A DNA stretch of 64,000 nt from Pseudobdellovibrionaceae bacterium. GTDB taxonomy: Bacteria > Bdellovibrionota > Bdellovibrionia > Bdellovibrionales > Bdellovibrionaceae. The stretch is from NCBI GenBank assembly GCA_019637955.1, contig JAHBUS010000012.1, forward strand, positions 1 through 64,000. Direction: 5' to 3'. This document shows, one piece after another, positions 14,239 to 19,814 of the stretch. Each line of letters starts with the position of its first letter. The stretch's first letter is position 1. The notes below the pieces were generated by a model. It did not search any database. It saw nothing but the letters and a program-made list of their open reading frames with translations, and was not told the DNA's origin. The translations under genes and the position numbers were made by a program.

Positions 14239-15273
14239 TCAAAAGTAAACGTTCTGCTCGCCCCACTGCTGCGTGAGGCCGCGCACGTGCTGCAAAAGGG
14301 CTTGTGCGCGCGCCAAGAGCGACGACGCATCGGATTTCAGGCGAAGGGCCGTGATCAAGTCATTGCGTTCAGGTCCGCTCAAAAGATCAGCCAAACGCTG
14401 CACGCGCTGGATCTGCGCGCGGTCAAAGCGGCTGACAATTTTCAAGTACGTCGTGACCTGATTGGTTCCGCGCATCGACGCTCCGCCATTGTCGCGGGCG
14501 AAGAAGAACAGTTTGCCGTTGCCGTCGATCGAAGCCTCGACGTTGCCGCCACTCCAGCGGTCCCATTGTCCGCACAAGAGGTCCAGAACCATGATCTGCG
14601 AAAACTGGCGCGAGAGTTCAAGCTCGCTCTGCGTGGGCGTGCTTCCGTTTTTCGCCTTCACCCCTTTGAGTGACATTTCGCGAGTCGTGGGACGGGGGCC
14701 ATCGGCGCGGATAAATTGCGCGATGGGGTGCGCGCGGTTGATGGTGTTGGCATCGGGGTTCGCGACGTCCAAAGCCTCCCACTCATCGGTCTTGGGCGTG
14801 AGCACGCCCGCCAGTGAGTTGGGATTCGCCCGGATCTTTTCGATCAACTCGTCTTGATTTTCGCGGCGCCATTGATTGCGCTCGTTCGCGCTGGTGAGCA
14901 TGCCGTAGAAAATCTGCGTGGTGCGCGGCCCGATCGTGTAAGGAGCCGAAGGAACCACGAGGGCGCTCATGCGCAGAAACTGCGCCAGGCGGTGCGACAC
15001 CAGCTGAGCTTCCGAATTGGCGGCGCCGTTTGCGGGTAAGAACTTGCCGACCGACTTTCCGGCGGGGTCTTTGATTTTAAGCCCCAGCGACGTGCCGCCC
15101 GGTTTGTACTCAAGTTGGTAGGACGGGTCTTCAAGATTGAGCGCCGCCGCCTTGGCTTCGAAGGCCTGATCCTGCGCCAAAATTTGAAATTCTTCCGAGC
15201 GCACATCGCGGGCCAGGGCCGAGACCGAGCAGCCCGTCAGGGCGAGGAGGGTGAGGGTCCATCCGAGTTTCAT
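14239..15273 (-). CDS. Kinase-like (CotH/Fam20/HipA-type) lipoprotein
   Basis: About 344 residues. The signal peptide ends LLALTGC, a lipobox, so the product should be anchored outside the inner membrane. The body has features of atypical protein kinases: a glycine/lysine beta unit (GGTSLGLKIKDPAGKSVGKF), a helix (EAQLVSHRLAQFLRMS), a catalytic-loop-like LLCGQWDRWSGGN with Asp and Asn, and a metal-binding-like FFARDNGG. CotH-type kinases are frequent neighbours of VTC-domain and DUF4956 genes. It is the last gene of that operon here, 22 bases after VTC. AAAGGA precedes the ATG at 15273; another ATG lies at 15291. Kinase activity is inferred. Confidence 0.72.
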   Translation of the reverse strand: MKLGWTLTLLALTGCSVSALARDVRSEEFQILAQDQAFEAKAAALNLEDPSYQLEYKPGGTSLGLKIKDPAGKSVGKFLPANGAANSEAQLVSHRLAQFLRMSALVVPSAPYTIGPRTTQIFYGMLTSANERNQWRRENQDELIEKIRANPNSLAGVLTPKTDEWEALDVANPDANTINRAHPIAQFIRADGPRPTTREMSLKGVKAKNGSTPTQSELELSRQFSQIMVLDLLCGQWDRWSGGNVEASIDGNGKLFFFARDNGGASMRGTNQVTTYLKIVSRFDRAQIQRVQRLADLLSGPERNDLITALRLKSDASSLLARAQALLQHVRGLTQQWGEQNVYF

Positions 15274-15295
15274 GAAAAATCCTTTCATCAATGTT

Positions 15296-16099
15296 TTATC
15301 TTAAAAATGAAGTTTGAATGCGGCCGCCGGCGAAGTCCTCGAAGCCCTGCGGTGAGTAGCACTCGCGCATGCTGCCTTCAAATTTCGAAAACCCGCGCCG
15401 GACCAGATCAAAGCGTTTGATCAGATCCACCATCCAAACCGGGATCTTGCGTTCGCATTTGAGCTCCAAAATCACGTTCACGCCCGGCATGCCGAAGGTG
15501 GCCGGATGGTCATAATTGAGCATCTCCTCTTCGCGAGGGATGACATCGTAACCCGTTTCCATGCGGTAGCGCAGGCTTCGGTCAAACGTGATCCGGGCGT
15601 AATCGTCGACGGTCGAGAGGTAAGCCTTGCGCCGGTACTGGGTTAAGATCATCGGGCTGGCGCCGTAGGTGCTGACCAGACCCATGAAGTGCATCAAGTG
15701 AGGATCTTCAGTGGGGTCAAAGTCTTTGATGCTCTCGGGTTTGAGAAAGAGATCGCCCCAGTTTTCGAACGGGACCCGGCCCCGCCGCTTTTTCGAAAAC
15801 TCAGCCGTCTTTTCTTTCGTCTCGAAATAATAGGGAGGCTTCGGGTTGTCGCCGTAGGACCGCACGCGCAGGCTCATCTTTCCGGTCAAATTTTCTTTGG
15901 CGCGGATGAAATGGTAATTGGGCGTCTCAAAATACAGACTGTTGATCGTGTAGAAGTGGTCGGGAGAGATCTGCGAGTAGTAATCCATGTCGCAAAACGC
16001 TTCGACGTAGCGGGAGATCGGCTCGACCATCGAAAACGGAATGAGATACTTCAGTTCGTACCGTTCCAGAACCAAGGGAGAAACGGGACCCACCGCCAT
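15296..16099 (-). CDS. VTC-domain polyphosphate polymerase-like protein
   Basis: A 267-residue protein that is one VTC domain, the tunnel-shaped catalytic domain of eukaryotic Vtc4 that builds polyphosphate from ATP. Basic and acidic tunnel residues are visible: LERYELKYLIP, LRVRSYGD, YFETKEKT, KKRRGRVPF, LTQYRRKAYL, RITFDRSLRYR and the metal-ligand strand VILELKCERK. There is no signal peptide, so it acts in the cytoplasm. Its ATG overlaps the TolC-like gene's stop (TAATG), so it is translationally coupled. Polymer synthesis is inferred from the family; the product could be polyphosphate or a related polymer. Confidence 0.9.
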   Translation of the reverse strand: MAVGPVSPLVLERYELKYLIPFSMVEPISRYVEAFCDMDYYSQISPDHFYTINSLYFETPNYHFIRAKENLTGKMSLRVRSYGDNPKPPYYFETKEKTAEFSKKRRGRVPFENWGDLFLKPESIKDFDPTEDPHLMHFMGLVSTYGASPMILTQYRRKAYLSTVDDYARITFDRSLRYRMETGYDVIPREEEMLNYDHPATFGMPGVNVILELKCERKIPVWMVDLIKRFDLVRRGFSKFEGSMRECYSPQGFEDFAGGRIQTSFLR

Positions 16100-17328
16100 T
16101 AGAGAATCCTCTTGGCGGTCTTCGAAAGGTGATTGGACTCGGGCGCCGAAGCGATGGATGAGGATTCATGCAAGTACTTGATGTAGAGCGCGCGGATCCG
16201 GAACTCCAGATCCAACAAGTGTTCGCGGCTTTCGAGCCATCCGCGCTGCAGGTCCAGCGCGAGCATCGGGTCTTGGCCCGCGATGGCGCTACTGGCCCGG
16301 CGAAGTTCATCGGGATTCATGCGAGACGTCTCGCGCATTGATTTGTGCAAGTCCAAGAGCGTGCGCAGTTCGGTCACGGTATTTTTGTAATCGCGGTCCG
16401 AAAGAGCGGTGGTTTCGCGCGATTTGTTGCGTTCGCGCAGCATTTTGATTCGCTTGTCGACGGCCGAGAGGTCGGGCGCACCCGCGAACGGGAGATTGAT
16501 GGCGACTTCGACCCCGTAAACCTTTTCGCCCTTGTCATCCTTCATCGAGACTTCGATGTGTTCGAGCCATTTCTCGTCGCGGGCGCGGTCGTACTGCAAG
16601 GCCGACTGCGATTTTTCAAGATCGGCGAGAACAACTTGATTTGTCAGCGTTTGCTCGAGGCGCTTGTCGGCGGCTCCGTCGAATTTCGTGCGGATGTCGT
16701 CGATCGAAGCCAGATCTGTGAGATCGAATTGGTCGATCCCGCCCAATTGCAGGTCGCTGAGTTCGCTCTGCGTGTTGCTGTAATCGCGCTGGATGTCGGC
16801 GATCTTCAGGTCGATCTTGTCCAGATCGGTTTTGGCTTTGAGGTAGGATTTCAGTTCGGTGCGGCTTTTCTGGGCCGCGTACGAAAGGGCTTTCGAAGCG
16901 CGGCGGCTCACCTGCGAGAGCTGATCGGCCATCGCCTTTTTCTCTTTGGCTAGAGTCAGCCGCGCGATCAGGTCGTAGCGGGCCACCAGCATCTTTGAGA
17001 GGGCCTCGCTCAGGGCGGCCTCTTCGTTTTTTTCGAGCGCGCGCTGAAAACGCGAGCTGGCGACGTGTTCGGAGTACCCCTTCGGGTACAAACGCAGACC
17101 CACTTTGACGTCTTGCTGGTTCAGTTCGCCGCGGTCAAACCGGATGTCGGCTTTTTCCAGTGGATTCAGGCTCGACGCGTCCTTCGTCAGGCGCACGGCC
17201 TCTTGTTGGTTGGCGATTTGCGGATCTTTCCAGGCCGTCTTTAAAATGTCCTCGGGCGAGGCGGCCCAAAGGGGCGCCTGCACGAGCGAAAGGCCGGCAA
17301 AGAGAAGGGCGGCGGTCTTACTTTTCAT
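16099..17328 (-). CDS. TolC-like outer-membrane efflux protein
   Basis: A 409-residue protein with signal peptide (MKSKTAALLFAGLSLVQAPLWA) and long alpha-helical coiled-coil stretches (ALSEALSKMLVARYDLIARL; KKAMADQLSQVSRRASKAL), the layout of an outer-membrane efflux protein. It is somewhat divergent from canonical TolC: the beta-barrel segments are short and hard to see apart from KVGLRLYPKG and YGVEVAINLPFAG. It overlaps the adaptor gene upstream by 11 bases and the VTC gene downstream at TAATG. It likely forms the outer-membrane exit of the operon's machine. Confidence 0.8.
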   Translation of the reverse strand: MKSKTAALLFAGLSLVQAPLWAASPEDILKTAWKDPQIANQQEAVRLTKDASSLNPLEKADIRFDRGELNQQDVKVGLRLYPKGYSEHVASSRFQRALEKNEEAALSEALSKMLVARYDLIARLTLAKEKKAMADQLSQVSRRASKALSYAAQKSRTELKSYLKAKTDLDKIDLKIADIQRDYSNTQSELSDLQLGGIDQFDLTDLASIDDIRTKFDGAADKRLEQTLTNQVVLADLEKSQSALQYDRARDEKWLEHIEVSMKDDKGEKVYGVEVAINLPFAGAPDLSAVDKRIKMLRERNKSRETTALSDRDYKNTVTELRTLLDLHKSMRETSRMNPDELRRASSAIAGQDPMLALDLQRGWLESREHLLDLEFRIRALYIKYLHESSSIASAPESNHLSKTAKRIL

Positions 17329-19141
17329 TTTTCTTGGCCGGGGCCTTCACGGCATTTTGGAGGGAGAGGCGTGTGAATTTGGCGGTTTCGTCCTTGAGGT
17401 CGAAAGCGACGAAGAGCGAGCTGTCTTTGGTGTCGAGCGCGAGCCCTTCGGGTTTAAGCCCCTTGAACTCGCGGATCAGTTCGGGCGTGACCACACCCTG
17501 GTTCTCCTGAAGGCGCCAAACGGCCCCGCAGTTTTCGTCGTCGCAGACGGTGGCCGCGTACAGGCGCCCTTTGATCTTGATCAAGTCGCTGAGGCGCTGA
17601 CTCTGCCCTTGGTTTTTGCCGAAATCCAAGGCCTTCCAAAGAGCGACGTTCTCGCTCTTGAGAGTCTTGGTTTTCAAGAGCGCATCGACGCCCTTGACCA
17701 CCACGATGGCGGTTTTGTCACCCTCGAGGAAGGGCTCTTTAAAGCCGAGATAAAGATCGCCGCCATCAACGAAGTGGCTCTCGATTTCAAAGTCGTCTTC
17801 GTCCGCGGACTTGAGCAGAGCCTGCAAAGCTTTATCTTGACCGGCTTTGATCGCCTTGATGAGCAAAGGTTTGAGTTCGACTTGGCCCACGACCGAGAGG
17901 TCCAGTCCCGAGCGCTTGATTTCGACAAAGAGATTTCGTTCGGACTTTTCTTTGCCTTTTTTGGTCAGGCCTTGCGACGCGAGAATGTAAATCGAATCGC
18001 CGCTTTGGCTGATCGACTCGAGGTCCGAAATTTTGTCAAGGCCCGCGACCGTCAGGACTTGGTCATCCACTTTGCCGTCCCGGTCGGCCAAAAACAGGGT
18101 CGCGCTCTTTTTCTTGTCGGTGTCGTCGCTGACGATCAGGTATTTCTTTAAATCCTCCAGGTACAAAACGCCCGAAGGCTCGAACGAATAGCGTCGGCCC
18201 AAGCCCGAAGGCAGGTGCATGGCCTGAGGAGCCATCTCGGGCTCGGCAATCGCCGCCGCGCTCGCGGTTTCGGTTGCCGCCACCGCGATCGGAAAGCTGA
18301 AGAGTTCAAACTTGGGTTTGATTTGAACTTTTTCACCCAAAAGCAGGCCGTTTTGCGAGGGGATTTCGACCACGACTTCGCGGCCCCAAATCTGAACGTT
18401 CGGAAAGTGCATCAGGCGCGGGGGCATCAGGATGATGCGCGAGCCGACGCTGACGATCTTGCCTTGCAAAGTGGCGTGGCCGCGCGTGAGCGGAACCACC
18501 GACACGGTTTTGCCGATCTCGAGTTTGGTTTGCAAATTCTCATGAACGAAGCCCTCGACATAGGAGGGGTTCGCGGGCGAGAGCGTGAGCACACTCGTGA
18601 ACGCGGGAACCTTCTCGCCTTTTTTGAAATTCACGGCGCCGACGATCCCATCGACCTCGGCGAAAACGTAAAGATTCTTCTTTTGCAGCTCGAGGTACTC
18701 GATCTCTTGGCCCAGGTCTTCGATGTCGACCGCGAGCGGGTCGGCGAGGTCAACGCTCGACGAGTTGCTCACGATCGAGTTCAGGTGCTGACGCACTTTC
18801 ATCTCGGATTGCAGCTTCGCCATTTGCGATCTTGCCAGGCGCAGGCGTGAATTCAGCTCGGACTGATTGAGCTCGATCAAGAGATCGCCTTTTTTGACCA
18901 TCTGTCCCGCCAGGACGTGGATGCGTTTGATCTCGACCGGCGATTCGAAATTGACTTGCAGTTCGCGCGAATCGGCGACGCCCAAAAAGCTCATGGACTC
19001 GGAGCCCATGTAGAAGCTCAAGGCGACCACGCCGGCCAAGCAGGCGGCCCAGACCATGGCCATGTAGCGGTTGTCGGTCCCGACGATGTCTTCTTGAATA
19101 ATCGTGATGAGTTTTTTGATGGATTTCACGTCAGACCTCAA
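17318..19141 (-). CDS. HlyD-like adaptor fused to a beta-propeller-like domain
   Basis: A 607-residue inner-membrane-anchored periplasmic protein. A single helix lies near residues 27-45 (MAMVWAACLAGVVALSFYMG). A HlyD/membrane-fusion part follows: the lipoyl half VEIKRIHVLAGQMVKKGDLL, a coiled-coil hairpin (LNSRLRLARSQMAKLQSEM) and the second half VDGIVGAVNFKKGEKVPAFT. After about residue 300 comes an approximately 300-residue domain with repeated blade-like strands (GVLYLEDLKKYLIVSDD; DLESISQSGDSIYILAS; PEGLALDTKDSSLFVAF), like SdiA-regulated or esterase-like-phytase propellers. This fusion is unusual. It overlaps neighbours on both sides by 11 bases, so translation is coupled. Confidence 0.8.
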   Translation of the reverse strand: MRSDVKSIKKLITIIQEDIVGTDNRYMAMVWAACLAGVVALSFYMGSESMSFLGVADSRELQVNFESPVEIKRIHVLAGQMVKKGDLLIELNQSELNSRLRLARSQMAKLQSEMKVRQHLNSIVSNSSSVDLADPLAVDIEDLGQEIEYLELQKKNLYVFAEVDGIVGAVNFKKGEKVPAFTSVLTLSPANPSYVEGFVHENLQTKLEIGKTVSVVPLTRGHATLQGKIVSVGSRIILMPPRLMHFPNVQIWGREVVVEIPSQNGLLLGEKVQIKPKFELFSFPIAVAATETASAAAIAEPEMAPQAMHLPSGLGRRYSFEPSGVLYLEDLKKYLIVSDDTDKKKSATLFLADRDGKVDDQVLTVAGLDKISDLESISQSGDSIYILASQGLTKKGKEKSERNLFVEIKRSGLDLSVVGQVELKPLLIKAIKAGQDKALQALLKSADEDDFEIESHFVDGGDLYLGFKEPFLEGDKTAIVVVKGVDALLKTKTLKSENVALWKALDFGKNQGQSQRLSDLIKIKGRLYAATVCDDENCGAVWRLQENQGVVTPELIREFKGLKPEGLALDTKDSSLFVAFDLKDETAKFTRLSLQNAVKAPAKKNEK

Positions 19142-19814
19142 TGATCGAGTCTTGCATCATCAGGTTGACGCCCTTGGCGCCCGGAACCTTCTGCAATGAA
19201 GACAGCATCGAATGGTTGGTGGTTTTGCCTTTGAACTTCAATTGATAGGCGTAGTCGAGAAGATCGCCTTGGCCGATTTCGCGGACCGAGATCATCGCGA
19301 AGTGTTTGCAGTTTTCGTTCAGCACCTTCTCGAGTTCACGCACGTTTTCGTCTTCGCGCTTCAAATGCAGGCGCAAGAGGGCGTCGAACTGGGGACCGTG
19401 GGCGAAGGGCGTCTTGGCCAACACCAGCGTCGAAGCCACAAAGCACATCGCCCCGATGGTGGCGATGGCGTAGGCGTGAACGCCGGCCGCGAGTCCGATC
19501 GCGAGTGAAGCGAAGATAAAGAACATGTCGCGGGGGTCTTTGATATTGGTGCGAAAGCGCAAAATCGAAATGGCGCCGATCATGCCGATCCCGCGCGCGA
19601 CATTGTCGCCGATCGCCTGCATCGCGGTGGCCGTCAGGATCGGGCAGAGCACCAAGCAGTGCAGAAAGTTTCGCGAGTACGACAAACCTTGAAAAGTTTT
19701 AACGTACAAGACGGCGATCACGGTGCCGAGAACGAAAGACAGCAGAAACGCGTAGAACACCGACAGGATTGTCGGGTTGGCCATGGATGTGCTGAGCACA
19801 TTAAAATCAAGCAT
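19131..19814 (-). CDS. DUF4956 membrane protein, first gene of the VTC operon
   Basis: A 227-residue protein. The N-terminal two thirds has four or five membrane helices, with the family's conserved core (GDNVARGIGMIGAISILRFRTNIKDPRDM, given here as GMIGAISILRFRTN and KDPRDM). A cytoplasmic C-terminal ferredoxin-like domain ends with PGAKGVNLMMQDSIIEV. DUF4956 proteins commonly neighbour VTC-domain genes in bacteria, and their biochemical role is unknown. GGGGAG lies eight bases before the ATG. The 3' end overlaps the adaptor gene by 11 bases. A promoter is expected in 19815-19933 but no clear boxes were found. Confidence 0.88.
   Translation of the reverse strand: MLDFNVLSTSMANPTILSVFYAFLLSFVLGTVIAVLYVKTFQGLSYSRNFLHCLVLCPILTATAMQAIGDNVARGIGMIGAISILRFRTNIKDPRDMFFIFASLAIGLAAGVHAYAIATIGAMCFVASTLVLAKTPFAHGPQFDALLRLHLKREDENVRELEKVLNENCKHFAMISVREIGQGDLLDYAYQLKFKGKTTNHSMLSSLQKVPGAKGVNLMMQDSIIEV

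Follow-up and report, generated by a model that had tools for sequence, protein, structure and literature searches.

A HlyD-type periplasmic adaptor with a C-terminal five-bladed β-propeller in a probable phosphate-polymer operon of a Pseudobdellovibrionaceae bacterium

The window, a 64,000-nucleotide stretch of DNA from a Pseudobdellovibrionaceae bacterium, encodes an unusual export adaptor. Computation shows it to be a HlyD-type periplasmic adaptor, anchored in the inner membrane, which carries a five-bladed β-propeller of the YjiK/SdiA-regulated type at its C-terminus and has been kept as a fusion. The gene lies in a compact operon of overlapping genes for a DUF4956 protein, the adaptor, an outer-membrane-factor (OMF)-like protein and a VTC polymerase (Table 1). 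The VTC gene bears out the phosphate-polymer context that a preliminary description, made from the sequence alone, had given to the operon. All the parts belong to known families; what we could not find described is a propeller on an adaptor within an operon whose probable task is to make and export a phosphate polymer. Two adaptor reviews (PMC13328181 and the first part of PMC8277102) make no mention of a propeller. A search of the open-licence literature brought up no account of a propeller on an export adaptor and no paper that combines three of CotH, polyphosphate polymerase, HlyD and operon, and the papers naming DUF4956 that were examined do not describe the adaptor.

Table 1. Features of the adaptor-propeller locus in the window
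Feature	Position	Strand	Size and basis
Secreted protein, unassigned family	14239..15291	-	350 aa; 4 bp past VTC; no Pfam match
VTC-domain polyphosphate polymerase	15296..16099	-	267 aa; PF09359, 128 bits
Outer-membrane-factor (TolC)-like protein, putative	16099..17328	-	409 aa; overlaps adaptor gene, downstream, and VTC gene
Adaptor-propeller fusion gene	17318..19141	-	607 aa, TTG start; HlyD domains and full-length orthologues
Five-bladed β-propeller	17351..18235	-	Residues 303-597; model, fold search, conservation
Disordered linker	18242..18304	-	About residues 280-300; pLDDT < 50 in full-length model
HlyD-type adaptor body	18314..18988	-	Residues 52-276; barrel-sandwich, short α-hairpin, β-barrel; Pfam and model
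Short α-helical hairpin	18677..18862	-	About residues 94-155 (helices 93-122, 134-154); model
N-terminal membrane-anchor helix	19004..19078	-	About residues 22-46 (helix 21-45); model helix, hydrophobic stretch behind K/R-rich start
DUF4956/MgtC-like inner-membrane protein	19131..19814	-	227 aa; PF16316, 58.2 bits; overlaps adaptor gene, upstream

The adaptor and its operon

The fusion gene is a single intact frame of 607 codons, in which ORF analysis found zero internal stops. Its TTG start may be off by four codons because a GTG at residue 5, which would give a protein of 603 amino acids, aligns with the starts of the relatives. In the full-length model the anchor helix is followed by a lipoyl/barrel-sandwich domain with its short hairpin, a barrel, the disordered linker and the propeller. 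The single domains are confident and the pLDDT of the whole is 82, with a pTM of 0.56 that leaves the placement of the propeller relative to the adaptor undefined. The anchor helix would put the remainder of the protein in the periplasm.

The preliminary description took the protein for a HlyD-type adaptor with an extra C-terminal propeller in residues 300-607, and it was right about both halves. The barrel-sandwich/barrel domains, at residues 59-236, match the Pfam families HlyD_3 (34.8 bits, cut-off 22.2) and HlyD_D23 (30.1 bits, cut-off 30.0), and both the hairpin and the N-terminal anchor are present in the model. The hairpin region is about 70-100 residues longer in the relatives from Desulfobacterota and Fibrobacterota than in the window protein. 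The operon contains no ABC, RND or MFS transporter that could be the partner of the adaptor; its membrane partner is the DUF4956/MgtC-like protein. The OMF (TolC-like) assignment is putative, being weak by sequence and made mainly from the position of the gene; a homologue has a sub-threshold match to OEP (E 0.0087).

The VTC gene of the operon is the only copy in the window genome. The family profile finds yeast Vtc4 (E 2.4e-9), and when the family is aligned to Vtc4 the window protein is seen to keep R78/R80, E93/K95, K104, E212/K214 and K239. These belong to the motifs R-x-R, E-x-K, K and E-L-K, which are conserved.

The operon is kept across phyla as DUF4956, adaptor, OMF-like protein and VTC, often together with a CotH kinase. 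Of 38 related loci, 36 have DUF4956 next to the adaptor, 36 have the OMF-like gene and 28 have VTC, some of the absences being due to contig ends. CotH accompanies at least 14 of the 38 loci (21 by looser clustering) and was confirmed by Pfam in two, L039 and L040; it is absent from the window genome. The 350-residue secreted protein encoded after VTC was considered as a conserved partner and rejected, its gene being present in 4 of 69 genomes and lying, in the nearest relative, on a contig other than that of the operon. Its GQWDRWSGGN...DNGGA motif recalls the secretory kinases of the Fam20 type. In three other Bdellovibrionota loci (L045:13749-17078, L049:13992-17321 and the partial L032:2-2371) the operon adjoins a gene for a protein of about 1,100 residues, which follows VTC in the first two. 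The protein has the kinase-like motifs NNDVKEAANN...DLGFSFG, with no Pfam match in L045, and may stand in for CotH in these Bdellovibrionota.

Fold and conserved residues of the propeller

Residues 300-607 of the window protein match no Pfam family above cut-off. An alignment of the C-terminal region was made from 25 loci and its members were scanned singly against Pfam. DUF3616 (PF12275) matches 18 of these 25, Phytase-like (PF13449) matches 17 (best 8.1e-8), and SdiA-regulated (PF06977) matches six (best 4.6e-9). The window propeller scores 13.8 bits against PF13449, under the cut-off of 27.6, and the window protein has no sequence match to PF06977. The β-propeller phytase family PF02333 does not match the window protein, and the list of 25 families for the relatives does not contain it.

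The AlphaFold2 model of the domain, computed with 25 relatives, is all-β, with a mean pLDDT of 89.1 and a pTM of 0.88. It has about 21 strands, which make up five four-stranded blades and a closing N-terminal strand, a grouping read from the strand list of the model. The best match among the solved structures in VIA-align is 3qqz, the C-terminal domain of YjiK (Z 20.2, rmsd 2.8, 215 residues). Five-bladed glutaminyl cyclases come next (Z 17-18), and the human calcium-activated nucleotidase SCAN-1 matches at Z 16.0. Only the YjiK match stands out, because Z values of 14-18 are common to many five-bladed enzymes. A sequence search of the propeller family against solved structures gave no direct link, and a search of the viral fold library returned many unspecific propellers and was uninformative.

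The propeller had been proposed to be of the SdiA-regulated or the phytase-like type. The first proposal is right, because the top fold match is YjiK, an E. coli member of the SdiA-regulated family. The second is not supported, given the low Phytase-like score and the number of blades. True β-propeller phytases have six blades, and a phytase or a PhoX-type phosphatase was rejected on this count and for want of a family match above cut-off. The phytase-like activity on phosphate esters that had been suggested was not upheld either: the domain showed no phosphatase site, and none of the families that matched has a proven one. The propeller also turns up in the absence of the operon, and the operon often lacks the propeller, so an invariable role in phosphate-ester chemistry is unsupported.

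Seven residues (E321, D339, D373, E375, R402, E454 and E565) are invariant in the 25-member family, and D519 and D581 occur in 23 of the members. Each blade has one near-invariant acidic residue at, or just ahead of, its first strand: E321, E375 (with D373), E454, D519 and E565 for blades one to five in turn. Such a ring suggests a metal at the propeller axis. The acidic pattern is also kept in the free-standing relatives of the propeller. In one genome, G039, the adaptor carries a degenerate propeller that has lost most of the acidic residues (L023:1012-2634, reverse strand). A Campylobacterales locus with an unfused adaptor (L063:2884-3693, reverse strand) has a divergent, unfused gene for an SdiA-regulated lipoprotein adjoining the operon. 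This lipoprotein shares the acidic residue in four of the five blades, and a phmmer search with it found designed propellers only.

Distribution and history of the fusion

The same fusion was sought in other genomes, as the preliminary description had advised, and was found at full length in 26 of the 290 genomes of the phylum. In about nine more the domain, some 300 residues long, occurs only by itself, with counts made from open-frame lengths. In a set of 118 relatives, full-length fusions of 586-610 amino acids, 37-58% identical, come from about 20 genomes. When 84,980 species genomes were scanned, 38 relatives emerged, and among them the fusion occurs in Bdellovibrionota, Desulfobacterota, Myxococcota and Fibrobacterota. 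The uninterrupted fusion is seen in complete genomes as well.

The adaptor and the propeller have evolved together, as their tree distances at 39 loci are correlated with r = 0.90. Mapped on an adaptor tree with 56 rows, the three states (fused, split and unfused) take eight changes, compared to 15.6 after shuffling. Fourteen propeller-less adaptors are scattered over the tree, and four free-standing propellers nest within the fusion group of Bdellovibrionota. The simplest reading is an ancient fusion, after which the propeller was lost repeatedly and detached at least once, a direction that the trees do not prove. The propeller is best regarded as an accessory module, because homologous adaptors occur without it and because it has been repeatedly lost or detached from systems that are otherwise retained.

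Several arrangements depart from the common one. The four nesting propellers (L024, L025, L026 and L027; 292-321 amino acids) have starts that resemble signal peptides, as does another free-standing copy of the same propeller at G056:C1:288238-289068. At L083 in genome G338 a reverse-strand frame of 369 codons (1249-2355) joins the anchor straight to the propeller, the adaptor body being absent. Genome G319 has an operon with an unfused adaptor and, separately, a 707-residue adaptor-propeller fusion (L078 and L052).

Possible function and comparison with known systems

To our knowledge, how polyphosphate is transported across two membranes in bacteria is an open question. We tentatively favour, at somewhat less than even confidence, a trans-envelope machine that would make a phosphate polymer and export it, with the propeller serving as an accessory module for calcium-dependent binding or trimming of the polymer; the cargo, its direction, the metal and the role of the propeller are all inferred. 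On the cytosolic side, VTC would use ATP to make polyphosphate or a related phosphate polymer. The DUF4956 protein would be the inner-membrane conduit for the chain, and the adaptor and the outer-membrane factor would carry it through the periplasm and the outer membrane. The propeller would hang in the periplasm on its flexible linker, with a divalent metal, most likely calcium, held by its acidic ring. There it might bind or trim the emerging anionic polymer, or pass it to a target at the surface. Several points tell against this reading. Loci of Bacteroidota have DUF4956, adaptor and OMF without VTC alongside, so something other than polyphosphate may be exported; the VTC-like gene of S. 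intermedius has no reported aggregation phenotype of its own (PMC12345266); the OMF assignment is weak by sequence; and the propeller has no defined placement relative to the adaptor.

The propeller could instead be a structural or docking domain, which steadies the adaptor ring or its contact with DUF4956, CotH or the outer-membrane factor and binds no cargo. Propellers are common interaction scaffolds, genome G039 keeps the domain without the acidic ring, and the short hairpin of Bdellovibrionota might call for extra contacts. However, the domain is dispensable in many relatives, some genomes have it as a protein of its own that looks secreted, and the ring is otherwise near-invariant. Docking is possible but unlikely.

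An equally unlikely alternative is that another anionic or phosphorylated cargo is exported, such as a protein phosphorylated by CotH or a Pel-like polysaccharide, VTC being only a phosphate donor or modifier. The Bacteroidota loci that lack VTC nearby fit this reading. In addition, CotH adjoins the operon in many loci, and the Gram-positive homologues sit in Pel loci and affect the amount of Pel (PMC12345266). Against this, the window genome has no CotH, and VTC, with its catalytic residues kept, is the sole polymerase recognised in the operon.

It is rather improbable that the propeller is a calcium-dependent hydrolase, a polyphosphatase or nucleotidase acting in the periplasm to trim the polymer or to recycle phosphate. 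The resemblance to SCAN-1, the invariant acids with the invariant R402 and the phosphate-polymer type of the operon would all fit such an enzyme. Yet the fold matches take in many unrelated five-bladed enzymes, cyclases and glycosidases among them, the Phytase-like score is under its cut-off and no catalytic motif can be transferred. That the fusion is an artefact of annotation or assembly, a sequencing error having joined two genes, is scarcely credible: adaptor and propeller are separate ORFs at three loci of Chitinispirillaceae, but the fusion runs uninterrupted through the orthologues in the phylum and in several others, complete genomes included.

A frameshift joining two genes had been named as a possibility in the preliminary description. 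For the window protein, a rearranged or frameshifted gene pair was rejected on the strength of the intact orthologues. The split is seen in the three Chitinispirillaceae genomes. There the two ORFs, in differing frames, meet at a poly-A run exactly at the junction (A9 at L058:11006-11014, A10 at L059:10355-10364 and A11 at L060:3627-3637), which is the longest homopolymer of the locus in each case. Changing the run by one base in silico restores a continuous fusion of 660-668 amino acids. Five further Chitinispirillaceae genomes have an in-frame fusion and no such run at the junction. That all three cases are out of frame is no test, its chance under random frames being 0.3. The tract looks like a candidate switch working by phase variation or transcriptional slippage; a homopolymer error in assembly is a possible alternative source of the split.

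Put together, these observations might describe an undescribed polymer synthase-exporter of diderm bacteria, in which a VTC polymerase and a DUF4956 conduit, joined to an adaptor and an outer-membrane factor, would synthesise polyphosphate and export it in a single pass. The adaptor's propeller, loaded with calcium, would handle the emerging chain, and some lineages would turn the propeller on and off by means of a poly-A tract. We hold this fuller picture to be less likely than not. The operon, which cultured Bdellovibrio and several other phyla possess, is a concrete four-gene candidate for polyphosphate transport over two membranes. It brings three orphan pieces, DUF4956, the bacterial VTC proteins and the SdiA-regulated propellers, together in a single machine. 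What lacks a precedent among the export adaptors checked is the propeller.

The known members of the SdiA-regulated/YjiK family are separate proteins of unknown function. The window domain shares their five-bladed fold but forms the C-terminus of an export adaptor, and its sequence misses the Pfam model. The Phytase-like and DUF3616 families give weak to moderate matches for most members of the propeller family, whereas the window domain is below cut-off, and an esterase or phytase activity is unsupported.

In the yeast VTC complex, polyphosphate is made at the cytosolic side and passed through the membrane part (review PMC10657179). The VTC polymerase domain of the operon is alike, with its key residues aligned to Vtc4, but it is encoded by a separate gene, its membrane part would be the DUF4956 protein, and there are two membranes to cross. 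Gram-positive Pel loci hold CotH, polyphosphate polymerase and DUF4956 together (PMC7112168; PMC12345266). In S. intermedius, deleting the DUF4956-like or the CotH gene alters Pel amount and aggregation, whereas no aggregation phenotype of its own is reported for the VTC-like gene, and the trio was reported as not found outside Pel loci (PMC12345266). All three are present in the Desulfobacterota and Fibrobacterota loci, and no Pel locus was recognised in a comparison that covered the operon genes and CotH. The diderm loci resemble the Gram-positive cassette in having DUF4956 and VTC, and often CotH, which the window genome lacks. They differ from it in the added adaptor and outer-membrane factor, the Gram-positives having no outer membrane to cross. 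With the HlyD/RND periplasmic adaptors the window protein has in common the anchor, barrel-sandwich, hairpin and barrel, and an adjoining gene that is putatively outer-membrane-factor-like. Unlike them, it bears a C-terminal propeller, and its inner-membrane partner is a DUF4956 protein rather than an ABC, RND or MFS pump.
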